IMG/VR virus record: IMGVR_UViG_3300037090_000056
Coordinates: 1-34,753 of that record
Length of the DNA: 34,753 bases
Source of the DNA: a virus
Strand: one strand, 5' to 3'
The notes beneath the pieces were generated by a model that saw nothing but the letters and a program-made list of their open reading frames with translations, was not told the origin of the DNA and did not search any database. Both the position numbers and the translations under genes were made by a program. This document shows, in pieces, positions 1 to 27,314 of the stretch. Each line of letters opens with the position of its first letter. Position 1 is the first letter of the stretch.

Positions 1-1403
1 CTTCAGAAACCCTTAATGTTCCTGCATTAGATGCAAATGTTCCAACTGAAATTGAAATTATTTTATCAAATGCTTCTCTTGATACAAATATTTCATCAAT
101 AAGTCTTAAAGTTGCAACAAACAAAGGTATATTCGATGTTTGGTTGGATGATATTCGCACTATTAAATGCTTTACTGGAGATATTAATAACAGATTCAGT
201 TGTGAAACAGTATATGACAATGATTCAAATGAGGTAAAATTTATAATAACAAATGGATTTGATGTTCCAAAGTGTTGGAATGGAACATTGCATCTTATAG
301 ACCTGCCTGGCAATCCACATAAAGCTAAGTTTGTTAAGCAGTTTTATACTTGGACTTTATTGTTAAATTGTAATGTTCTTGGTAATGATACTCCTCAACG
401 TGTTGATTGGTGTGTTCCAGGTAATCCAAAAGATTGGTCAGGTGTTGAATCTGGAACTAACACGTTGGCGGCAACAACTGGGCCAATTGTTGGTTGTGAA
501 ATATTAAGAGGACAACTTGCCATATTATTGGAACGTTCAATAACTATGATGTACGCAACAGGAAGTTCACCACCCTTTACCTTTGATGAAAACAAAATCC
601 TTGATGTAGGATGTATGTCAGCAGGAAGTATTCAATCTCTTGGTGAAACATTGATGTTCTTGGGATGGGATAATTTCTACACTTTTGATGGATTCTCTTG
701 CAATCCTATTGGAGACAAAGTTATTAATTATTTTCTTGATAACTTAAATCCAAATGGAATTGACCAGATGTTTTCTCATATGTTGGAAGATTATAATTTG
801 TATTTGTTGTTTTTCCCATCACCGCAATCGGATGCACCAGACCAAGTTATAGTTTATGATTATTCTAAAAATGCTTTTATTGGAATTTGGAAATTTGCTT
901 CTGATATGACAGCTGATGGATATTACAGATCAGAGAGTGCAACAACTATTGGTGCTTTAACAATGATTATTGGTGATATGGACTTTAAAATTGGTTCAAG
1001 AGTATTTCAAAGTGTTGCACCATACGATATGTTGGGCGATTATGATGGGTATATTTATAGAAATACAGAAATGATTAAAAATGATGATGGTGTTCCAATA
1101 GAATCCTATATGGATACTAAAAGTTTTATGCCAAATCTTGGAAAATACAGTAGATTTGTAAGGAATGAATTTTATGCAGTTGGTGATTTGTTAGAAACAT
1201 ATGTTAGCAATGATAATGGCAAAGTTTTTTCCCTGCTTACATCAACTCTACTTGGTACAGATGAAACAGAACCAATATTGACAGACCCATTTGATGTAAC
1301 AAATGAGAAAGCAATATTCAGATTAAGAAACGCTGAGATGGAAGGATTTTTTAATTTGGATGGATTCAGATATTATTCAATTGATAAAGATGAGGAAGTG
1401 TAA
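1..1403 (+). CDS. Tail hub/nozzle beta-propeller-like protein (5' truncated)
   Basis: The reading frame is open from base 3 with no stop before the stop codon at 1401-1403, so about 466 C-terminal residues are present and the start lies outside the window. The TTG at 144 is not a credible start because the frame continues upstream. The protein is beta-rich, with repeated aromatic/glycine blades such as LGWDNFYTFDG and QVIVYDYSKNAFIGIWKF. This is the pattern of P22 gp10/T7 gp12-type tail hub or nozzle proteins, which plug the portal and carry the fibres; the family call is inference. It lies directly upstream of the tail fibre and ejection genes, as expected for a short-tailed phage. It overlaps the next gene at TAATG, which suggests translational coupling. 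Confidence 0.6.
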   Translation, partial: SETLNVPALDANVPTEIEIILSNASLDTNISSISLKVATNKGIFDVWLDDIRTIKCFTGDINNRFSCETVYDNDSNEVKFIITNGFDVPKCWNGTLHLIDLPGNPHKAKFVKQFYTWTLLLNCNVLGNDTPQRVDWCVPGNPKDWSGVESGTNTLAATTGPIVGCEILRGQLAILLERSITMMYATGSSPPFTFDENKILDVGCMSAGSIQSLGETLMFLGWDNFYTFDGFSCNPIGDKVINYFLDNLNPNGIDQMFSHMLEDYNLYLLFFPSPQSDAPDQVIVYDYSKNAFIGIWKFASDMTADGYYRSESATTIGALTMIIGDMDFKIGSRVFQSVAPYDMLGDYDGYIYRNTEMIKNDDGVPIESYMDTKSFMPNLGKYSRFVRNEFYAVGDLLETYVSNDNGKVFSLLTSTLLGTDETEPILTDPFDVTNEKAIFRLRNAEMEGFFNLDGFRYYSIDKDEEV

Positions 1404-1621
1404 TGAATTATATATTAAACAAAGGTACATTTATGATTCCAGTTGTGCCTACTAAATTTGAAAATTTATCAGATGTTCAGAAAGTTTTGACCCAATTTCA
1501 ACAACATCTTAGCGATATTGGAAATTCAGTTAATTTGTATGACCCAAGTAATTATCTTGATGGTGGATTTCCAAGTTCTGTGTATGGTGGAACTGACACG
1601 GTTGATGGTGGTGGAGTGTAA
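1403..1621 (+). CDS. Small tail-region protein, unknown function
   Basis: A 72-residue protein whose ATG overlaps the preceding stop (TAATG) and whose TAA overlaps the ATG of the tail fibre gene. A second in-frame ATG at 1433 (MIPVVPTKFENL) has its own AAAGG ten bases upstream and may be the real start, giving 62 residues. The C-terminus is glycine-rich (YGGTDTVDGGGV), like a flexible tether. No domain is recognised. Being squeezed between the tail hub and the receptor-binding fibre suggests a structural or adaptor role, but that is context only. Confidence 0.7.
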   Translation: MNYILNKGTFMIPVVPTKFENLSDVQKVLTQFQQHLSDIGNSVNLYDPSNYLDGGFPSSVYGGTDTVDGGGV

Positions 1622-3192
1622 TGGCACAAAAGATTCAATTAAGAAGGGGTACTGCTGCTCAGTGGACAGCCGCTAATCCAATTCTTGGCCAAGGTGAACT
1701 CGCTATGGAGATTGACACCTTGAAGTTTAAGATTGGTGATGGCACTACTACGTGGACTTCCCTTTCTTATTTCACGCAAGGAGTTGCTGGGCCAACTGGG
1801 CCTGCAGGTGCAGCAGGTGCGACTTGGTATCAAGGAGCGACAATACCTTCGTCTGGACTTGGAGTTAATGGAGACTTCTATTTCAGAACAGTCACTTGTG
1901 ATATTTACAACAAGTCATCTGGAACGTGGTCAATCATAGCAAATACAATAGGTGCAACTGGCCCACAAGGAATACAAGGTGCAAGCGGTAGTATCCCAAC
2001 AGCAGCAGCAGGTGGTAGTGCTGATGCAATCACAGTAACTTACAATCCACCTATTACACTTGCAGACCAACAAAACATAAGATTTGTTGCTGCTTATGCA
2101 AATGCTACGACAACACCAACCATAAACCCTAATGGTCTTGGTGCAGAAGTTATTACTAAACAAGGTGGACAAGCTCTTTCTCCTGCCGACATTCCAAGAG
2201 CAGGTGCTGTTTGTGACTTACAATATAATCTTGCAAACACAAGATGGGAGCTTCTGAATCCTGCCTCTCCGTCTGTATCAAGCGAACTGATTATCAATCT
2301 TAAGCTCGTTGTCAATGGTTCTGTTAATAAGTTGGACATCTTTACAAAGTCTGGCGGTGCGGTTCCCGACGGCACAAATTTTCCCACGATTTCCATTCCT
2401 GATGGGACAGGTCTTGTTCAGAGAACCCGCAAGGCAACCTACCTTTCCGGCACTTCTCAATTCATTATGGCAGATGCAGCAAATTACTGGTCGAAAGGTT
2501 CACTGGATGCGGAGATTAAAACCGCATACGTCTATGCTATTTGGGATGCAGCAGGGGGAATTGTATGGGCATTGGGCGGCTATTCAGGGTTCACAAGATG
2601 TCCTGCATCCACTACGGCAACAGACGATGATTTTTTCCTACTCGAAGCCAGTTCAACCTACACGAAAGTTATCACCGATTACTGTGTCTGTGTAGGTAAA
2701 ATCCGCTATCAGTATGACACCGCCGACACGCCGGATCACACCATTCAGGCAACCGTGTTGGATGCCCCGCAGGTGATGTGGAATCCAAAGTCCACCTATG
2801 GTAAAACGGTTTCTCTCGCAACCTCGATAACATCTGGTGCAGATATCACCGCGTCGTCCATTATTTCTGCTGTGATAAAGCAAAGCGGGGCCTATAATAT
2901 AGGATTCTATGTTTCTGGCGGGTCTGACGGGGCTGGGTTTTGTTTCTTATATCCGTTAATCAAAACAGGGTCAGCGACCTTTGGGTCAGCAGTAACGCAG
3001 GCAGCGAGCACATTCCAAATAGCTACGGGTTATTACTTTGGGGGGTGTGTATCCATAGTAGGGCTATATCTAAACGCAGGAGATACTATACATTTTGGTT
3101 GTGCCGTGGCAGCCGCTTCGGGGCTACGACAAATATTAGGAGATAACCAATATCTTAAAGCAACAAATATAAGTTTCACGAGAACAGATTAA
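1621..3192 (+). CDS. Tail fibre / receptor-binding protein with mosaic C-terminus
   Basis: A 523-residue fibre. Residues 1-50 (KIQLRRGTAAQW, then ELAMEIDTLKFKIGDG) match the N-terminal attachment domain of phage tropism-determinant (Mtd-like) fibres. Collagen-like Gly-X-Y runs at about 58-69 and 111-123 flank a small GDFYFRT/DIYNKSSGTW module. Residues about 130-220 form a beta-rich fibre module. The last 120 residues (GAYNIGFYV, then LNAGDTIHFG, ending ISFTRTD) look like a C1q/TNF-type jelly-roll; this is inference. From about residue 225 the DNA becomes GC-rich (33 of 60 bases are G+C at 2521-2580), unlike the AT-rich late operon, so the receptor-binding half was probably acquired separately. 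It probably binds the host surface. Confidence 0.85.
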   Translation: MAQKIQLRRGTAAQWTAANPILGQGELAMEIDTLKFKIGDGTTTWTSLSYFTQGVAGPTGPAGAAGATWYQGATIPSSGLGVNGDFYFRTVTCDIYNKSSGTWSIIANTIGATGPQGIQGASGSIPTAAAGGSADAITVTYNPPITLADQQNIRFVAAYANATTTPTINPNGLGAEVITKQGGQALSPADIPRAGAVCDLQYNLANTRWELLNPASPSVSSELIINLKLVVNGSVNKLDIFTKSGGAVPDGTNFPTISIPDGTGLVQRTRKATYLSGTSQFIMADAANYWSKGSLDAEIKTAYVYAIWDAAGGIVWALGGYSGFTRCPASTTATDDDFFLLEASSTYTKVITDYCVCVGKIRYQYDTADTPDHTIQATVLDAPQVMWNPKSTYGKTVSLATSITSGADITASSIISAVIKQSGAYNIGFYVSGGSDGAGFCFLYPLIKTGSATFGSAVTQAASTFQIATGYYFGGCVSIVGLYLNAGDTIHFGCAVAAASGLRQILGDNQYLKATNISFTRTD

Positions 3193-3605: not shown

Positions 3606-4013
3606 ATGAAAATCATTAAGACCAAAGATCAATCAGTTATCATTTACATCAATGAAAAGATCAAACAGTACATTGAACGTGAGGAAATTAAAGAGTACGA
3701 TTCGCAATTATTTATTAAATGGCTAAGGCCATCCTTAACAGCATTTAACATTGCTGTATGGGTCGCATTGGAAGAAGATAAATGTTTGGGCTATCTCATT
3801 GTACAGGTGAACCCTACATTTACATACGAGAAACTAAACATAATATCACTCTTTGGTGATACGCCCGAAATCGAAGCAAAACTGTTAGAAGGTGCTGAGG
3901 TTTGGGCAAAAAGTAATGGCATTAAAATATGCCAAACTTCTACTTTTCATCCTAAAAAATGGAAAGATAGGGGATTCCAAGTCGTGGAACACCTTTTAAC
4001 AAAGGAGATTTAA
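3606..4013 (+). CDS. GNAT-like acetyltransferase-fold protein
   Basis: A 135-residue protein preceded by GGAGGAAAGG. The order of elements (IAVWVALEEDKCLGYLIVQV, then NIISLFGDTPEIEAKLLEGAEVWAKSNG, then ICQTSTFHPKKWKDRGFQVVEHLLTKEI) fits a small GNAT fold: central strands, a helix where acetyl-CoA would bind, and a C-terminal GF-x-V strand. The canonical Q/RxxGxG/A pyrophosphate loop is not clear, so it may be a non-catalytic relative. Similar GNAT-like proteins occur in virion-gene clusters of short-tailed phages. It ends one base before the next gene. Fold assignment is moderate; the substrate is unknown. Confidence 0.55.
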   Translation: MKIIKTKDQSVIIYINEKIKQYIEREEIKEYDSQLFIKWLRPSLTAFNIAVWVALEEDKCLGYLIVQVNPTFTYEKLNIISLFGDTPEIEAKLLEGAEVWAKSNGIKICQTSTFHPKKWKDRGFQVVEHLLTKEI

Positions 4014-5689: not shown

Positions 5690-6934
5690 ATGTCAAATCA
5701 AGTAATATATGTACCTGAAGATACCAGATTTAAAGATATGGGTCAAGGTATTCAACAAGGTATTTTACAGGGTATCCAATTGGGAATGAAGAAGAAAGAA
5801 CAAGAAAGAAAAGAAGCTCAATTTCAAATACAAACCTTAATGGAAACTGGTGGTACTCTTGATGATGCTACTATGACAAAACTTTCCAAAGCTGCAGGAA
5901 TGTCAGAAGGATGGTTAAAGTCGTTATCCTCAAAAGAACTTACACCAAAACTTGATGAACAAGGACAACCTACCAAGGTAGATGCAGGTGAATTTGATAA
6001 AATGTTCAATGAAGGTGGTACAAACATGAAAAGCACTGGAACATTTCAAAGTGCTTCTGAAAAAGCAATAGGTGCTATTAAACCAAAAATGATGGCAGAG
6101 GCAGAGGCATCTTCTGCAACTGCACCAGTTTACAGAGATATTAAGGTGGAAGATGAAGCAGCTATGACACCTGGTATGGCTAAAAGAGCTAAATTAATGG
6201 AGAAAGCCAAAACAGAAGCTGATATTGAAACCGCACCACAAACAACCAAAGCAGAAGCAGCCAGAGTCAAAGCTGTTAAGAAGGCAGGTGTTGAAGCTGA
6301 CATTGAAATGGCACCAGAAGTAAGAAAGAAGAAAGCTGCGGATATGTTAGACGAAGCTAAAACAACTGAAGAAATTGGTGCTATGTATTTTAAACCTCAA
6401 CTTGCAAGAAAACTTGAGGAACATAGAGCAACTAAAGGAATAGATTTTCAATTTGAATCAGCACTCAAACGTATTCCTGCAGGTGAAACAGCGGCACATG
6501 AGGAATTAACAAGAGCACATGCAGAATACTTCCGTAAAAATTCTGAATTTATTGCTAATGGTGGTAAAGACAAGACAAACTCTTCTCAAAAATACAACGA
6601 TGTTATTAAAATGGCTGCAGCAGCAGGTCTTGTAGATACCGATAAAAAGACAAAAATGCAGGTTATTAAAGATGTTAAACCTGGCAGTAAAGAAGAAGAA
6701 GCATTGAAGAATATGTTTGATGATGCAGGATTGGAATATGAGGAAATAACAGTTCCTCATTGGTATGGACTTGGTAAAGCTGGTGTCCGTATAGTTCCAA
6801 TTGTTAAAGCAGGTAAATCCAGTTCCAGTTCAACATCAAGTTCAAGCGGTGGAACATCAGGAGCAATTCTTGAAAGAAAGGTAGTGAATGGTAAAAAATT
6901 AGTCAGAAAAGCTGACGGATGGTATGAAGAATGA
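5690..6934 (+). CDS. Internal virion / ejection-type coiled-coil protein
   Basis: A 414-residue protein starting at ATG 5690. It is preceded by a perfect AGGAGG nine bases upstream, which is why this start is chosen over an upstream in-frame ATG at 5609 lying inside the previous gene. The protein is mostly helical and charged: a basic N-terminal helix (QLGMKKKEQERKEAQFQIQ), long Ala/Glu/Lys stretches over residues 130-260, and a Ser/Gly linker (about residues 380-395) before a compact end with LVRKADGWYEE. No enzymatic motif is seen. Length, composition and position between the smaller and very large ejection genes suggest the middle member of a three-protein ejection set. It ends in an ATGA overlap with the next gene. 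Confidence 0.6.
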   Translation: MSNQVIYVPEDTRFKDMGQGIQQGILQGIQLGMKKKEQERKEAQFQIQTLMETGGTLDDATMTKLSKAAGMSEGWLKSLSSKELTPKLDEQGQPTKVDAGEFDKMFNEGGTNMKSTGTFQSASEKAIGAIKPKMMAEAEASSATAPVYRDIKVEDEAAMTPGMAKRAKLMEKAKTEADIETAPQTTKAEAARVKAVKKAGVEADIEMAPEVRKKKAADMLDEAKTTEEIGAMYFKPQLARKLEEHRATKGIDFQFESALKRIPAGETAAHEELTRAHAEYFRKNSEFIANGGKDKTNSSQKYNDVIKMAAAAGLVDTDKKTKMQVIKDVKPGSKEEEALKNMFDDAGLEYEEITVPHWYGLGKAGVRIVPIVKAGKSSSSSTSSSSGGTSGAILERKVVNGKKLVRKADGWYEE

Positions 6935-9900
6935 GAAAATTAACAGACGATGAAGTTTCTGGTTTGGGTCTTGAGGAAAGCTCTCCAAGGAAATTGGATG
7001 ATTCTGAGGCTAAATCCCTTGGATTGATACCAACAAGACCAAAGCCCAAACCCAATCTTGCACAACCACTACTCAAAGCTTCTCATGAGTATGGTGTTGC
7101 CAATACACCTGCTGCAGCATTATCTTTGGTTAAGAATATGGTTGTTGATTTCCCTGCCCAAGTGGGGGCATTTGTAGGTGGTGCTTCATTAGATGCAAGT
7201 GAAGGTTTTTCTAAGGGGAATTGGTCATTAAACCAAGCCAGAAACTCATACCAAAAAGCAGGTGAAATGCTCCATGTTGGTGGTGATTGGATGGAGGGTG
7301 GGGAACAGATGTTGTCGGACGTTTTCCAACCTTTGGAGAGTGCAGCCACATGGGTTGGCGAAGGTGTTACAGATTTAACTGGTTCACCGACAGCAGGTGC
7401 TACTGCATATGCAGCCACACAAGTGTTACCATTCTTACTTGCAGGTGGTGCAGTTCGTGGTCGTGTGTTAAAACGTCAGAAAGCCATCAATGATGTTAAG
7501 GTTCTATCTGAAAAAATAACAAATAAAGAACACACACAAGAATTAGTCAAAAATGCAGAAGCAAGAAGAATTGATGCTGAAGAAATTGATAGGGTTGTAG
7601 ATGTATTCGGCCCACAAGAAGATCCAAAAGCAGATGCATTTGCACTTAAATCTGATATAGTTGGACTTGTTAAAGATGGTATAAAAGACCCATCACCACA
7701 AGGTAAAAAGAACCTGCAAACTCTTGTAGAGGCAAACAAAACTATTGGCAAAGTAAGTGCAGCAGAAATACCAGATGGTTCTGTTCTTGAACTTGCCAAA
7801 GGAATACTTGGAAGTGAACGTGGGTCAATACCTGTGGGTGGTAAAAAGAAAGGTGGAAAACCTGATACATTTAAAGACTGGGCATTCAGTAAAGGTATCG
7901 GCACTGTCACTATTGGTAGCCCAGAACATATTAAACTATTGGAACAATTTGGTGATTATCGTGAAAAGGCAGGTGCACCATTACAAACTTCAGTAGAACA
8001 AATAAACACTTTCAAAGCAAATTATGAAGCAGGGCAACGTATAGAGATTCAAACTGCATCTGCTGGGAAACCTGTTTTTACAGCTACCAACAATATCAAA
8101 GAACATCAAAAGGATATCGCTGCTACCAAGGATACAATTAAAGCAGAAGCAATTGCAGATGAAAAGAACTTAAAGAAAGGTGAGAAAGTTGATAGGAAAG
8201 CAATAGCAGCAAAAAGAGATGAAGCAATACAAGATAAACAATTTTACGAAGATACTGAAGATATACTTGATGTTAAGGAAAAAGAGCAAGCTGCAGAAGC
8301 ATTAAATGAGGTCAAAACAAAATCGGGTAAACCAATATCTCTTGGTGACATTAACAAGGTAGGTAAAGCAAAAGAACTTAAAGTTGAAGCTACTCAACGT
8401 GCAGATGGCACAATGATAGCCAAAATAACAGATAAGTTTGGCACACCATATGAGTTTTCTTTGGCGAAGGGTGGTGCTACTCTTGAAGAAGTACATAATT
8501 TTGTTAAAAACTATACAAAATCATTTGGTCAAACTATGGCCAAAAGTAGGGAAATTAAAACAGATATTGTTGATAATTCTAAGGAACTTGTTGATACCAA
8601 AGCACAAGTTGCTGAGAAAGCAGTTCAAACAAAAACAGCAACAGAACCAGTTAAAACCATTATCAAAGAAAAGGTTGTTGATGAAACTGGTGTAGAAAAG
8701 ACAGTTACTGCGTCTGCTAAAGAGCCTGTCAAACGTACCAGAAGAAAGAAACCAATCACTGAGGAAGAAACTGAAAAACTGACACCTGTATCAGAGAAGT
8801 CCATACCACAGCCTATAATGGGTGAAGAAGATGCTCTGGCAAGTATGATGTTAAGTGGTAAGGATTTTAAACCTAAAGCAGCAACGGAATCTAAGAAACT
8901 TGGAACAATTAAAGGTGAAATTGTTGCTCCAAAGACTGGTGATACTGGACTTGGTCTATCATCTTGGATTGCTCCATTTAAACCAATAGCCCAGTCAATC
9001 CAGGAACGTACTGGCTTTCCCATGTATAAGTATTATGAACTTACACAAGCAGGACTTGAACAAGAAGGATTGTCATTAAGGTCTTATGAAAAGAGAATCC
9101 GTGCATCAGCAAAGGGAATGAACAACGAGAGTGCTATGCGTATTTATGGATTGCTTGAAAGAAAAGCATTCAGAGAGGCAGGTGGTGATTTTGGTAAGTT
9201 AATGAAGTCAGTTAATTCAGATGCAGATTTAAAAGCATTACTTGGTGATACTACCAGAAAAGAATTTGACGCTGCCAAGCAATTAAGAAGTATATTCAAT
9301 GATGCAGGTACTGAGTTTAATATCCCACTTGACAAGATGATTCTTGATTATGCCCCACGTATGCTTCCAGAAGGTGTAAGTGGTTGGGAGGATGCTATCA
9401 AAAAGTGGAAACTTCCAGAAGAATATAAATGGGCTGCTGAACAAGAACGTAGTGGTTATCTAAGACCACATGAACGCAACATATTTAAGGTTGCTCAATC
9501 TTATATTCAACGTGGTGCAAGAAAGAGATATGTTGGAGATCATATTGAAGAACTTGGTAAATTGATTAATGAAGGCAAACTTCAATCAAGTGCTGACAAA
9601 GACCAGGTTACACGGTATTTAAATGATTTACGTGGAACTCCCACAGCAATAGAAGAAACTGTTAGAAAGTCTGGTCAACGTGTAGCAACATTTATGAATG
9701 ATTGGATTAATAAATCACTTGAAACTATGGGGCTTGACGCTTCCGAGAGACATCCAAATACTACATATGAAAAGCGTGTAAGTGAAAATGGGCATACTTT
9801 CTTTGTAGAGACTGGTTCTGCACCAGGGGTGTTTGATGTTCATAATTTTGCACATGACTTTATAAATATGCACCTTAAATTGTCATATGCAGGTGGACTT

Positions 9901-10854
9901 GCTATAAGGCCATTAGTCTTTGTAAGGTCGGCATATCAATCACTTCTTGCAGCACCCATAACTGGCCCAACATGGTTTATGAAGGGTGCTCAAAAAGCCA
10001 TGACAAGAGAAGGATGGAATGAAGCAAGGGGAGTTGGTGCATTGTTAGATGAAGCTCCTGTTGCATCGGGTGAATTGAGTAAAGGTTGGTCAATACTTGA
10101 TGATGTTACTCAAAAGTCAACATTAAATCTAACAGTAGGACATAACTTGGGTAGAGGTATTGCCTACCATGCTATGAAAGAAAAAGCTACATTCTTTGGA
10201 GACAGATATATTAACAGAGTTATGCATGGTGATGACATAACAGAGGCTGCCCAAAAATTTGTAAAAGAAACTGGTGCTGATTTCTTCCACCCTGAGCTAA
10301 TAAAACAAGAAATATTGCCACTACTTGAAGCAGGAGACATGACATCTTTGGCGGAACGAATGGGTGTTCAAATGACCAGAGAAACCCAATGGCTATATCG
10401 TAAAGCAAACGCTCCGTATTGGGCAAGAAGTTCAGTTGGTAGAGTGTTTGGACAGTTTGGTGTCTGGCCAAGTTGGTACTTGCAGTATGCCAGAAACTTA
10501 GCTTCCAGAGGAAGTGCAATGACAAGAACTAAGCGTATTGCAGGACTTGCTGCAGTTAATGCGGGTTTCTACGAATTGGGAAAGGAAGTGTTCGGAGTGG
10601 ATATTTCCAGTTGGATGCTAACACACCCCCTTATGTGGTTCCCATTACCTGCAGCAACTGGTCATGCAATGCAAGCAATTGTAGGTAGTAAATCTGACTA
10701 TGAGAAACAAAAGGCAGAAGAACAATTAAAGAACTCTGTCGGTATCCATATGCCAGGTTATATTGCAGCAAAGGATATAATCAATAGTATGGATGAATCA
10801 CGTGATGAAGATAAGGTTAAAGTTGCAATGGGTTTCAGACCTGCGGAGGAATAA
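6931..10854 (+). CDS. Large internal virion / DNA-ejection protein
   Basis: At 1307 residues this is the largest protein in the window, coupled to the previous gene by ATGA. The N-terminal 170 residues mix Gly/Ala-rich and weakly hydrophobic stretches (TAYAATQVLPFLLAGGAV). Residues about 200-650 are charged and helical with many Lys/Glu. A more globular, aromatic C-terminal third follows (QERTGFPMYKYYELTQAG, WARSSVGRVFGQFGVWPS), with hydrophobic helices near 1180-1250 (MLTHPLMWFPLPAATGHA) that could insert in a membrane. I see no lysozyme or transglycosylase active-site motif. Such single giant proteins at the end of the ejection cluster resemble T7 gp16 in size and place. The function is inferred. 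Confidence 0.65.
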   Translation: MRKLTDDEVSGLGLEESSPRKLDDSEAKSLGLIPTRPKPKPNLAQPLLKASHEYGVANTPAAALSLVKNMVVDFPAQVGAFVGGASLDASEGFSKGNWSLNQARNSYQKAGEMLHVGGDWMEGGEQMLSDVFQPLESAATWVGEGVTDLTGSPTAGATAYAATQVLPFLLAGGAVRGRVLKRQKAINDVKVLSEKITNKEHTQELVKNAEARRIDAEEIDRVVDVFGPQEDPKADAFALKSDIVGLVKDGIKDPSPQGKKNLQTLVEANKTIGKVSAAEIPDGSVLELAKGILGSERGSIPVGGKKKGGKPDTFKDWAFSKGIGTVTIGSPEHIKLLEQFGDYREKAGAPLQTSVEQINTFKANYEAGQRIEIQTASAGKPVFTATNNIKEHQKDIAATKDTIKAEAIADEKNLKKGEKVDRKAIAAKRDEAIQDKQFYEDTEDILDVKEKEQAAEALNEVKTKSGKPISLGDINKVGKAKELKVEATQRADGTMIAKITDKFGTPYEFSLAKGGATLEEVHNFVKNYTKSFGQTMAKSREIKTDIVDNSKELVDTKAQVAEKAVQTKTATEPVKTIIKEKVVDETGVEKTVTASAKEPVKRTRRKKPITEEETEKLTPVSEKSIPQPIMGEEDALASMMLSGKDFKPKAATESKKLGTIKGEIVAPKTGDTGLGLSSWIAPFKPIAQSIQERTGFPMYKYYELTQAGLEQEGLSLRSYEKRIRASAKGMNNESAMRIYGLLERKAFREAGGDFGKLMKSVNSDADLKALLGDTTRKEFDAAKQLRSIFNDAGTEFNIPLDKMILDYAPRMLPEGVSGWEDAIKKWKLPEEYKWAAEQERSGYLRPHERNIFKVAQSYIQRGARKRYVGDHIEELGKLINEGKLQSSADKDQVTRYLNDLRGTPTAIEETVRKSGQRVATFMNDWINKSLETMGLDASERHPNTTYEKRVSENGHTFFVETGSAPGVFDVHNFAHDFINMHLKLSYAGGLAIRPLVFVRSAYQSLLAAPITGPTWFMKGAQKAMTREGWNEARGVGALLDEAPVASGELSKGWSILDDVTQKSTLNLTVGHNLGRGIAYHAMKEKATFFGDRYINRVMHGDDITEAAQKFVKETGADFFHPELIKQEILPLLEAGDMTSLAERMGVQMTRETQWLYRKANAPYWARSSVGRVFGQFGVWPSWYLQYARNLASRGSAMTRTKRIAGLAAVNAGFYELGKEVFGVDISSWMLTHPLMWFPLPAATGHAMQAIVGSKSDYEKQKAEEQLKNSVGIHMPGYIAAKDIINSMDESRDEDKVKVAMGFRPAEE

Positions 10855-10970
10855 TGGAAAAAGAACCAAGAATTTGTCAAGTCTGAGGATTAACATTCAT
10901 TCCTGGTGGGGATGATGATCCAGAAGATGTTTGTTTAGATTGTTGGTTGGGGGAGATTAAATTCATATGA
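10854..10970 (+). pseudogene. 39-codon zinc-knuckle gene interrupted by in-frame UGA at a CxxC position
   Basis: The frame starts at ATG 10854, overlapping the previous stop (TAATG) just after GCGGAGGA, and ends at TGA 10968-10970, overlapping the ATG of the next gene (ATGA). Both junction types are the norm in this operon. Codon 11 (10884-10886) is TGA. The product reads MEKEPRICQV, stop, then GLTFIPGGDDDPEDVCLDCW and GEIKFI (a Leu joins the last two parts). With Cys at codon 11 it would be a C-x2-C plus C-x2-C zinc knuckle. The gene is therefore either a one-base nonsense mutant or sequencing error (TGT/TGC to TGA), or a CxxU selenocysteine-type recoding case; see findings. UGA is a normal stop elsewhere here (6932, 4840). 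Confidence 0.6.
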
Positions 10971-12232
10971 AATTTCTATTTCTATCATGCGAAGGTAACA
11001 CCTGTGAAATGGCAAGACGAGTTGCTTTAGAAGGCAACGATGTTAAGGTTTGGATCAAGGTGGAAGGTTGCAAAAAGACTCTTGATGGTATGGTCAACAA
11101 GGTAGAGAATTGGGAAAAGTATGCTGATAAAGATACTGTTATTATAATTGACCATGTTAAGATGAGTAATATTGGTCAGGAACTTATTGATGGTGGTTAT
11201 CAAGTAATCAATGGTTCTAAATATCAAGACAAAATTGAACTTGATAGAGAACTTGGTCACACATTAATGCAAGAAAATGGAGTCAAGACACCTGAATTCC
11301 AAGAGTTTAACAATTGGCCAACAGCAATATCTTTCCTTATCAAGAATAAAAAGAAGCGATATGTTTTCAAACCTTCTGGTAATATGGAACTTGATTGGAG
11401 TTATATTGGGAAGGATACAGAGGATTTAATTGAACGTATCGAACATAAATTTAAACCTGAGTGGCCATCAGGCAAGCCCATCAAATTCATTTTTGAGGAA
11501 TTTATTAAAGGCATTGAGGTGAGTTCCGAAATCTGGATAAGCAGGGGCAACATTCTTAACATGAACTCCACAATGGAGGAGAAGAAACTTCTTACTGGAA
11601 ATCTCGGCCCAAGTATAGGGTGTGCTGGAAATATAGTGTGGAATTACCAACAAGCACCGCCCTTGATAGAAAAAACATTGATTAAACTTAAAGACGCCCT
11701 CACCAAGGAAAACTACTGCGGTGTTCTCGACATAAACACAATAGTGTCTGAGGAAGATGATGAGCCATATGGCATAGAATTTACCTCTCGGTTTGGTTAC
11801 GATGCCTTGCAAGCATGGGTTGAAACTATAAAAGGTGACATCGGAGAAATGCTTTATAACGTTGTACAGGGAAAGCCGATTCATACTGACAACTCCTTTG
11901 CTTGTGCTGTGCGTGTTAATATTCCACCATTTCCTTTTGACAAGGCTGAGAAGCGAGCAGGTGACTTGATACGTTTTGATATGGATTTGCTTAATTCTGG
12001 TCATTATTGGTTCTTTGATTGTGAGAAGAAAGATAAAAACCTACAAGTCATAGGTGTAGATGGAATCATGTGTGTTGTCTCCAGTAAAGCCAATACGATT
12101 GAACGTGCAATTGAAAAGTGTTATAAAAATATTGAAGCGATTGAATCTCCACGTGACATTATGTATAGAACCGACATCGGTGAACGTGTTATTAAAGAGT
12201 ACAAGACATTACAGCGTGTTGGGTTGTTATAA
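10967..12232 (+). CDS. PurD-like ATP-grasp ligase
   Basis: A 421-residue protein, about the length of bacterial phosphoribosylamine-glycine ligase. Matching landmarks include an N-terminal Rossmann-like half (VIIIDHVKMSNIGQELIDGG), the ATP-grasp strand YVFKPSG (about residue 133), the acidic strand EEFIKGIEVSSE (about 183), KLLTGNLGPSIGCAGN (about 208, cf. the PurD DxGPNTGGMG loop), GVLDINTIV (metal-site region) and EFTSRFGYDALQAW (cf. E-x-NxRFGDPE). The family couples ATP to amide-bond formation through an acyl-phosphate. Several PurD positions are altered (NLGP for DxGP, CAGN for GMGA), so the substrate need not be glycine and phosphoribosylamine. It is the last gene of the late operon and is coupled to the UGA-containing frame by ATGA. 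Confidence 0.75.
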   Translation: MKFLFLSCEGNTCEMARRVALEGNDVKVWIKVEGCKKTLDGMVNKVENWEKYADKDTVIIIDHVKMSNIGQELIDGGYQVINGSKYQDKIELDRELGHTLMQENGVKTPEFQEFNNWPTAISFLIKNKKKRYVFKPSGNMELDWSYIGKDTEDLIERIEHKFKPEWPSGKPIKFIFEEFIKGIEVSSEIWISRGNILNMNSTMEEKKLLTGNLGPSIGCAGNIVWNYQQAPPLIEKTLIKLKDALTKENYCGVLDINTIVSEEDDEPYGIEFTSRFGYDALQAWVETIKGDIGEMLYNVVQGKPIHTDNSFACAVRVNIPPFPFDKAEKRAGDLIRFDMDLLNSGHYWFFDCEKKDKNLQVIGVDGIMCVVSSKANTIERAIEKCYKNIEAIESPRDIMYRTDIGERVIKEYKTLQRVGLL

Positions 12233-18816: not shown

Positions 18817-19731
18817 CTATTCGAACAACGGTAAATTTTGTTCATACTTCTCTTGTTCTTTCTTGGATGCTTTTGATTTCTCGTGATCTACTCCTTGTAA
18901 ATAGCTCTGAAATCCACTTGTGATATTATCACGATAGTGCCACCAATCCAACGAGTTGATATAATTCTTGACTTGCGATACCATTCCCAAGTCTTTGTAT
19001 GGCATAATGTAAGGGACTTGATCATAATTAATAAGTATTTGGCAACGGTACAAATCCTGTTCCCACGTAGTGTCATAACCTGCAAGAACGTAGCATCTTG
19101 ATGCAATTTTATATGGTTTGATAAATTCCAATCCTTTAACAATAAGTTTCTCATCTCGCATTCTGTCCCATGCAAAGTGTAATCTACCATCCCATTTTGT
19201 TTTCTTGATTGCATCTGCTTTCTCCTCACTCATTAATCGCAAATCAAGTCCATGTTCCTTAACTGTCAATTTCTCAGCCCAAATTTCCTCAAATGTATGT
19301 TTCCATTGTGGATCAAGAAGCCAGTTGTTGTTCATTATGCAGATGGTTTTGAATCGCTTATCGTGGAACTCGTGAATGGAGTGGTGTCTGGTGTCGGGGT
19401 ACTTGAGTGTCTTAACCAAGCAGAAATCGCATCTTCTGTAGCAGGGTCTGTAAGTGTAACCAAGACTGTAGTCAAGTTCAAAAAGGTCATAATCAGGTTT
19501 AAGATATTCGACCTCTCGTGGCAAAATTTCGTTAGGGAATTGAATGCCTCCATAGACATCTGCCACGTAGGTGGATTTGTTCCACGCATATAAGATACTT
19601 GCATATGTTTTATCCGCCTTCCATAATGGTTGGTTTAACATCACTTCATCACCACGTTTCTTGTGGTATGCCGACAGTTTCATCAAAGCAAGGTTATGAT
19701 CTGGTGCATCCGTTAGTAATGAGATTTTCAT
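18817..19731 (-). CDS. Radical SAM protein
   Basis: A 304-residue protein with CYRRCDFC at residues 97-104 (C97, C101, C104), the CxxxCxxC signature that binds the SAM-cleaving 4Fe-4S cluster. The N-terminal 90 residues (KISLLTDAPDHNLALMKLSAY, KRGDEV) resemble the Rossmann domain that precedes the radical SAM barrel in B12-dependent and Elp3-like members. The C-terminus ends EQNLPLFE, resembling a beta-clamp-binding peptide (Q-x-L-x-L-F). Substrate unknown. Placement among DNA replication genes suggests a nucleic-acid modification role, which is inference. It overlaps the next upstream gene by 4 bases. Confidence 0.85.
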   Translation of the reverse strand: MKISLLTDAPDHNLALMKLSAYHKKRGDEVMLNQPLWKADKTYASILYAWNKSTYVADVYGGIQFPNEILPREVEYLKPDYDLFELDYSLGYTYRPCYRRCDFCLVKTLKYPDTRHHSIHEFHDKRFKTICIMNNNWLLDPQWKHTFEEIWAEKLTVKEHGLDLRLMSEEKADAIKKTKWDGRLHFAWDRMRDEKLIVKGLEFIKPYKIASRCYVLAGYDTTWEQDLYRCQILINYDQVPYIMPYKDLGMVSQVKNYINSLDWWHYRDNITSGFQSYLQGVDHEKSKASKKEQEKYEQNLPLFE

Positions 19732-23434: not shown

Positions 23435-23683
23435 TCATTGTACCTTGGCAATAGCAAATGTAACATTAATCTTCTGATCGTTCCATTCAACTGATGTCTT
23501 GAATGTAGTCTTGTCTTCAAAATTCATCAGGAATAAAACATCATCCTGCAGTTTCATGTCCTGCACTTCCTTCTGGATAGCCTCATACCGTGGTTTTAAC
23601 TGCTCACGTATTGAGCTGATTTGACTCTGTAACTCTGTCAACCGTACAAGGTCGGCAGGATCAATCTTGGCTATGTCATTCAT
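23435..23683 (-). CDS. Small helical/beta protein, unknown
   Basis: An 82-residue protein starting at ATG 23683 (MNDIAKIDPADLVRL), after AAGGGGTCAGTGT, overlapping the upstream gene by 8 bases. The upstream in-frame ATG at 23749 is rejected because it lies deep in that gene and has no ribosome site. A helix (ELQSQISSIREQLKPRYEAIQ) is followed by a beta half (LFLMNFEDKTTFKTSVEWND). Function unknown. Confidence 0.7.
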   Translation of the reverse strand: MNDIAKIDPADLVRLTELQSQISSIREQLKPRYEAIQKEVQDMKLQDDVLFLMNFEDKTTFKTSVEWNDQKINVTFAIAKVQ

Positions 23684-23984
23684 ACACTGACCCCTTAATC
23701 TTCTTCTGCCACATTTCTTCAATATCGCAAATAAATTCGACAAGCTCATCGTAGTCCCTTATGGAACCAAAGTCATTAACATAGAAGATTATGGACACAT
23801 CATCCTTGTCGTGTATGGCTCTCACTGTATCATCCTGAGTAAGAACATCCCACTTGATCTTGCCCTGCCCATTGAGAGCTTCAGCCACATCCTCAAAATC
23901 CGAAATACTAAAGTTCATTTCATCCGCTTCCTCAAACTTCTCATCAACCAATTCCTCTACAATTGCTCCAAATTCTTCATTCAT
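23676..23984 (-). CDS. Small acidic protein, unknown
   Basis: A 102-residue, strongly acidic protein (EEFGAIVEELVDEKFEEADE at the N-terminus) with a beta-rich middle (DVSIIFYVNDFGSIRDYDE). GGGAGGAGTTAATT precedes the ATG. Its acidic character would suit a DNA-mimic or a regulator of a basic partner, but nothing specific supports this. It overlaps the next gene by 8 bases. Confidence 0.7.
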   Translation of the reverse strand: MNEEFGAIVEELVDEKFEEADEMNFSISDFEDVAEALNGQGKIKWDVLTQDDTVRAIHDKDDVSIIFYVNDFGSIRDYDELVEFICDIEEMWQKKIKGSVYE

Positions 23985-26741: not shown

Positions 26742-26921
26742 ATGGCATTAGTAATTAGGTGTGCGGTTTGTGGGAACTTCGTTGAAGTAGCAAGTATATC
26801 CAATGATGCGGAGAGTGTCATCAGGGTATATCCATGCAAGTGCCAGTATGATGAGGGTGTTAAAGAGGGTACTTCCATTGAAGTTCGCAATGAAGGCAAG
26901 TCTCTTGGTATCGGGGGTTAA
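26742..26921 (+). CDS. 59-residue zinc-ribbon protein
   Basis: ATG 26742 after AGGTAGGTGATATT. Cys pairs C7/C10 (RCAVCGN) and C32/C34 (PCKCQY) make a small zinc ribbon, followed by a Gly-rich end. It stops two bases before the next zinc-ribbon gene. First of three consecutive genes of this kind; role unknown. Confidence 0.7.
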   Translation: MALVIRCAVCGNFVEVASISNDAESVIRVYPCKCQYDEGVKEGTSIEVRNEGKSLGIGG

Positions 26922-26923
26922 TC

Positions 26924-27127
26924 ATGGCTCAACGAATATGTTGTAGTTGTGGGAAAGAACTTACCATCACAGCCCAGTATGCAGATGCATCCAATACAGT
27001 AGTTGCTAAGTATTGTCCTATGTGTATTGTAGCAGCTTATAATATTGGTTATATAGATGGTGCTGCAACAGCTACACCTAAAACAGATGCTGATGTTATT
27101 ATGACAGGGCGTATTGATCTTGGATGA
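26924..27127 (+). CDS. 67-residue zinc-ribbon protein
   Basis: Cys pattern C6, C7, C9 (ICCSCGKEL) and C31/C34 (YCPMCIVAAY), typical of a treble-clef or zinc-ribbon micro-protein, followed by a Gly/Ala/Thr tail. A weak purine-rich stretch (GGGGG) precedes the ATG. It overlaps the next gene by up to 14 bases. Role unknown; it may be DNA- or RNA-binding. Confidence 0.7.
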   Translation: MAQRICCSCGKELTITAQYADASNTVVAKYCPMCIVAAYNIGYIDGAATATPKTDADVIMTGRIDLG

Positions 27128-27314
27128 GACCATAATTTGCTGTCCTGAATGTTGGAAAAAGGATGGGAAGTTTCCCCTATATGGGGAGATTCCTGTTGGC
27201 AACTCACAGATATGCTACTGTGAGAAGTGTCACAAGGTTTATTCGGTCAGGTTCGATTTTGAGAAGAAGGTCAGCTTAAAATATACAGGACAACTGGAGA
27301 CTTGGTTCTATTAA
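27114..27314 (+). CDS. Zinc-ribbon protein with non-ATG start
   Basis: Up to 66 residues with a clear four-Cys zinc ribbon: CCPECWKK near the N-terminus and CYCEKCHKVY about 24 residues on. No ATG is available in frame: TTG 27114 or TTG 27120 must be used, both inside the upstream gene, so it is probably translationally coupled. Its end overlaps the next ATG (TAATG). The Cys spacing resembles the zinc ribbon of transcription-related proteins. Confidence 0.65.
   Translation: MILDETIICCPECWKKDGKFPLYGEIPVGNSQICYCEKCHKVYSVRFDFEKKVSLKYTGQLETWFY

Follow-up and report, generated by a model that had tools for sequence, protein, structure and literature searches.

What does an in-frame UGA mean when it stands at a zinc-ligand cysteine position of a small phage gene? 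The question is raised by a locus in the IMG/VR virus record IMGVR_UViG_3300037090_000056, of which positions 1 to 34,753 were analyzed (this whole stretch of 34,753 nucleotides is called the window). The initial annotation had kept three readings open, namely sequencing error, recent nonsense mutation and decoding of UGA as selenocysteine, with a low prior for the last. This framing holds. The features of the locus are as follows.

6931..10854 (+): upstream gene, 1307 aa, without a family match, with a relative in L001 (the closest relative found)
10845..10849 (+): Shine-Dalgarno-like GGAGG ahead of the small gene
10854..10970 (+): CxxC...CxxC small-protein frame of 39 codons, interrupted by UGA at codon 11 (sequence, coding statistics)
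10884..10886 (+): in-frame TGA, codon 11, where the first knuckle (C-Q-V-*-G) would have its second Cys
10887..10921 (+): predicted hairpin of 35 bases, bacterial-SECIS-like, beginning with the first base after the UGA
10932..10946 (+): second knuckle plus Trp, C-L-D-C-W, intact
10948..10954 (+): G-rich Shine-Dalgarno-like stretch, about GGGGGAG, within the small gene and 5' of the ATP-grasp ATG (sequence reading)
10967..12232 (+): downstream gene, 421 aa, ATP-grasp (GARS_A-like)

The small gene and its relatives

The frame at 10854-10970 (+) translates as MEKEPRICQV*GLTFIPGGDDDPEDVCLDCWLGEIKFI*. At its 5' end, the ATG (10854-10856) shares a base with TAA (10852-10854), the stop of the upstream 1307-aa gene, giving TAATG. 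At its 3' end, the closing TGA (10968-10970) and the ATP-grasp start codon, which begins at 10967 and opens a gene of 421 aa, overlap as ATGA. The 39-codon frame and both junctions described initially were confirmed by the sequence, and so was the UGA at codon 11, at a zinc-ligand Cys position, with CLDC intact. The residues around the TGA (10884-10886) read I-C-Q-V-*-G; three of the four knuckle cysteines are present, and the fourth position is the UGA. Using codon statistics derived from conserved genes of the same phage, we found that the frame scores 12.9 bits over the whole stretch, compared with at most 7.2 bits in the other five frames. After the UGA, it scores 9.2 bits against 2.2 and 0.1 bits in the other two forward frames. 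Most of the coding signal lies 3' of the UGA, which implies that coding selection has acted on this part up to the present or the recent past. Apart from the UGA, no decay is visible in the frame.

In L001, the ATP-grasp neighbour is 77-78% identical and the upstream gene 41-46%. It turned out that the TAATG of the upstream gene leads there straight to the ATP-grasp start: the small gene is absent and the junction is closed. The 113 bases missing in L001 are exactly the small-gene stretch, and the Shine-Dalgarno-like counterpart, GAGG, sits directly 5' of the ATP-grasp gene. The small gene was not found at the more distant ATP-grasp loci examined either. Thus, it is accessory and dispensable. 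Since the closest relative lacks the gene and its junction is closed, the coupling does not make the gene needed; the two coupled ends reflect an insertion that fitted well or a loss that was clean. The earlier argument that a frame coupled in this way is a real gene is therefore supported as to gene context, but not as to need. The best explanation is that 10854-10970 is a real accessory gene for a predicted small CxxC...CxxC zinc-knuckle protein. That the stretch is not a gene at all, with coupling and cysteines arisen by chance, is hardly credible. The phage and plasmid collections gave no homologue at useful E-values, as a chance frame would have it, but the overlapping junctions at start and end, the Shine-Dalgarno-like site, a coding score above those of the other five frames and the exact correspondence to the 113 bases absent from L001 all argue against chance.

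Other loci of the phage were compared with the relative G001. A radical SAM protein (phrog_9298; window 18817-19731, -) is 77% identical in G001. Window 1403-3192 contains a frame of 72 aa, which at its start matches the N-terminus of a G001 protein of 606 aa, and after it a protein of 523 aa that carries an Mtd_N (major tropism determinant) domain; judging from this arrangement, the region is likely an exchanged receptor-binding module.

We scanned viral contigs with a pattern allowing any TGN at codon 11 and found many small phage proteins of a CxxCG ... CLDCW-like build. With Cys at the UGA, the small gene would encode a mini-protein of the CxxCG ... CLDCW type. Three of the scanned proteins (L034, L039 and L051; 37-38 residues), which have no assigned function, carry ICxxCG and DDDICLNCW. 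They are similar to the small gene in length, in the N-terminal ICxxCG, in an acidic stretch and in [IV]CL[ND]CW followed by G. Unlike the small gene, all three have a plain Cys at the UGA column and lack a SECIS-like hairpin; their homology to it is weak (identity about 32%). Such a hairpin was found in none of the 11 Cys-bearing proteins tested. The initial annotation had named the alignment of homologues at this codon as a test that might refute recoding. The alignment gave Cys without a hairpin, but it is not decisive, because even the nearest homologues are only about 32% identical.

UGA-bearing relatives did not appear in pattern scans with fixed or variable spacing, where TGA occurred only in frames that further stops interrupted or that looked random in other ways. 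In the limited collections searched, the UGA is known from a single sequence and not from two or more different ones. A degenerate search for DVCLDCW returned random frames only, a DNA pattern spanning the UGA of the gene had no match, and peptide searches against phage, plasmid, family and PDB collections gave nothing significant. No family in Pfam, PHROG or NCBIfam rose above the cut-off, even with the UGA read as Cys. The CxxCG ... CxxC layout resembles that of rubredoxin-type and zinc-ribbon metal sites. With the read-through peptide, the Pfam families double zinc ribbon and GATA, and also rubredoxin chains, matched weakly, all under curated cut-offs or at insignificant E-values, and on that evidence the small gene is not a member of these families. 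The phage has two other small CxxC...CxxC frames, adjoining each other near 26.9-27.3 kb (window 26894-27314). Their cysteines are intact and encoded by ordinary Cys codons, and both frames also occur in a second assembly of the phage.

Reliability of the base and use of UGA in the phage

This second assembly, IMGVR_UViG_3300037088_000116 (G021), is a contig of the same phage from another sample. It aligns with the window gap-free, with 99.1% identity over 11.2 kb and 99.6% over 5.3 kb. Most shared genes are identical, the differences are clustered in a few genes, and there are no premature stops among the genes compared. This near-identity points to a low error rate for such contigs, which would rarely carry a wrong base. 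The coverage of G021 ends at window 5294, short of the codon at 10884-10886, and a search for terminase relatives gave three near-identical phage contigs, none spanning codon 11. That the TGA at 10884-10886 arose by a sequencing or assembly error, or stems from a minority allele that entered the consensus, is quite improbable. Such an origin would suit a metagenome contig and a codon outside all second assemblies compared, but it fits poorly with a second assembly that is identical over most shared genes and gap-free over 16.5 kb without premature stops.

G021 also bridges the window ends (1 and 34753) through about 5.2 kb absent from the window, so that the genome is about 40 kb long. The missing 5.2 kb contains open frames resembling glycosyltransferase, methyltransferase and virion proteins, as judged by eye. 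The differences between the two assemblies are concentrated at window 23435-23749 (93) and 3606-4013 (18), which suggests recombination or diversifying exchange.

TGA terminates conserved full-length genes of the phage and also the small frame itself. Thus, UGA normally serves as a stop codon here, and we rejected its reassignment. A frameshift around the UGA was also rejected: on reading the sequence, the +1 frame reaches TAA within three codons and the remaining frame runs into a stop at 10915. Restart of translation after the UGA was rejected because an ATG is absent in frame. The window contains no tRNA genes; in the relative G001, a tRNA-Gln (ttg) lies at L055:8750-8821, beside the primase gene. 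SelA, the SelB wing domain and an above-threshold tRNA-Sec were not found in the window, G001 or G021. A search of genome contigs for the host gave one match (25%, in an alphaproteobacterial MAG), too remote for a host assignment.

The hairpin after the UGA

The predicted fold consists of a 6-bp outer stem (10887-10892/10916-10921), a 4-nt 5' bulge ACAU (10893-10896), an 8-bp inner stem (10897-10904/10908-10915) and an apical loop GGU (10905-10907). The SECIS-like hairpin proposed initially is thus real as a prediction, but its details changed: the stems of 6 and 8 bp have no bulged A, and there are three G-U pairs rather than two. Nor is the fold weak, as had been supposed. Its energy is -13.9 kcal/mol (42 nt folded), comparable to that of E. 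coli fdhF, and compared with dinucleotide-shuffled sequences the fold has a z of about -1.9.

The E. coli genes fdhF and fdnG were folded identically as positive controls. The fdhF SECIS gave -14.2 kcal/mol, with the loop GGUC beginning 18 nt after the UGA; the GGU loop of the phage hairpin begins at the same distance. In both controls, as in the phage, the hairpin lies directly 3' of the UGA, with U at +17, G at +23 and U at +24 (the U of UGA being 1). Unlike the controls, the phage hairpin has no bulged U, has a 3-nt loop and is known from the sequence prediction of one gene. E. coli SelB uses the bulged U17 and the loop G23/U24. The phage sequence has all three nucleotides, but the predicted fold places U17 in a U-G pair of the stem. 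Given the protein sequence, U17 and G23 are forced by the Ile and Gly codons, which accounts for part of the SECIS match.

The consensus model of the bacterial SECIS, as quoted in PMC13188914, has a loop of 3-9 nt, an upper stem of 4-16 bp, a G in the first two loop positions, a spacing of 16-37 nt and an MFE of at most -7.5. The hairpin at 10887-10921 agrees with all the constraints quoted there, and so do 38 of the 1522 TGA sites of the window. Three other TGA sites of the window fold at -13.9 or below with a G-bearing loop at 14-37 nt. When the 13 residues after the UGA were recoded synonymously (5000 recodings), 7% of the recodings agreed with the quoted constraints and 0.4% did so at the energy of the hairpin. 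The phage DNA examined holds 21,422 distinct TGA sites, 23 of which combine an E. coli-type loop and nucleotides with an energy of at most -7.5; at -13.85 or below there are four, codon 11 included. Twelve TGA sites of the window form CxxU or UxxC with a nearby CxxC in an open stretch. Two of these have a hairpin fitting the quoted constraints, and only that of codon 11 lies in a coupled small gene. The covariance check suggested initially was negative, as an Rfam search gave no match at the hairpin.

Weighing the readings

The likelihoods given here in words are our judgements, not computed values. The UGA at codon 11 is probably a recent nonsense mutation. The small gene would have been inserted at the junction of two neighbouring phage genes, or would have been lost from there; in this phage lineage, a Cys codon would recently have changed to TGA, and the gene would now yield only a 10-residue peptide. 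We infer an ancestral Cys at codon 11, its recent loss and a coincidental hairpin. A mutation of this kind suits a dispensable gene, since the ATP-grasp start of L001 lies in the upstream gene's own TAATG. Truncation need not silence the ATP-grasp neighbour, because a separate ribosome-binding-like stretch precedes it. Plain Cys codons in the similar small phage proteins and in the phage's own other CxxC...CxxC frames, TGA confined to random frames in the tolerant scans, the ordinary stop function of UGA, and the lack of tRNA genes in the window and of SelA, the SelB wing domain and above-threshold tRNA-Sec in the window, G001 and G021 point in the same direction. The hairpin, however, is unusually good for a coincidence, with 0.4% of recodings equally stable and fitting the quoted constraints and only three other sites among 21,422 fitting the E. 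coli-type positions at its energy. The UGA also falls exactly on a Cys position, an outcome that we would expect of only about one in five nonsense mutations arising from random changes of a single base, and the rest of the frame shows no decay. An alternative is that SelB and tRNA-Sec of the host read the UGA at 10884-10886 as selenocysteine, directed by the hairpin at 10887-10921. We consider this unlikely, and equally doubtful is its product, a 38-residue CxxU...CxxC metal-binding or redox protein with a SECIS in a phage gene. The agreement with the consensus SECIS as quoted in PMC13188914, the fdhF-like loop position, the U17, G23 and U24 shared with fdhF and fdnG, an energy near that of fdhF and rare among control sites and recodings, and the lack of such a hairpin in the 11 Cys-bearing proteins tested all speak for selenocysteine. 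Against it stand the paired U17, the codons that force U17 and G23, the lack of an Rfam match, and a phage in which SelA, SelB and tRNA-Sec were not found.

By our estimate, the hairpin and the placement of the UGA at a Cys position jointly shift the odds towards selenocysteine, relative to a random nonsense mutation, by roughly two to three orders of magnitude. The prior for a selenoprotein is very low, because the literature searched holds no example from a phage, the gene is dispensable and a structural zinc Cys is seldom replaced by selenocysteine. It is also low because the site was picked from a large scan and is one sequence, so that conservation is not shown. In a 2005 study of the Sargasso Sea, a cluster with a single TGA sequence was regarded as a mere candidate, given possible sequencing error (PMC1088965); by that standard, the phage gene is a candidate at most. 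Ordinary read-through, in which the stem would assist a near-cognate tRNA, or a leader peptide of 10 codons with a stop and hairpin that would tune ATP-grasp translation, ranks below a sequencing error and is likewise quite improbable. The order of short frame, stop, stable hairpin and ribosome-binding-like stretch 5' of the ATP-grasp gene would suit it, but the ATP-grasp gene of L001 stands without any such elements, and a leader leaves CLDCW after the stop unexplained.

If the UGA is a nonsense mutation, as we consider probable, the locus represents the ordinary loss of a dispensable small gene. If the selenoprotein were real, the phage would exploit the selenium decoding of its host, for which the literature searched gives no example, and selenocysteine would stand in a likely metal site rather than in a catalytic one.
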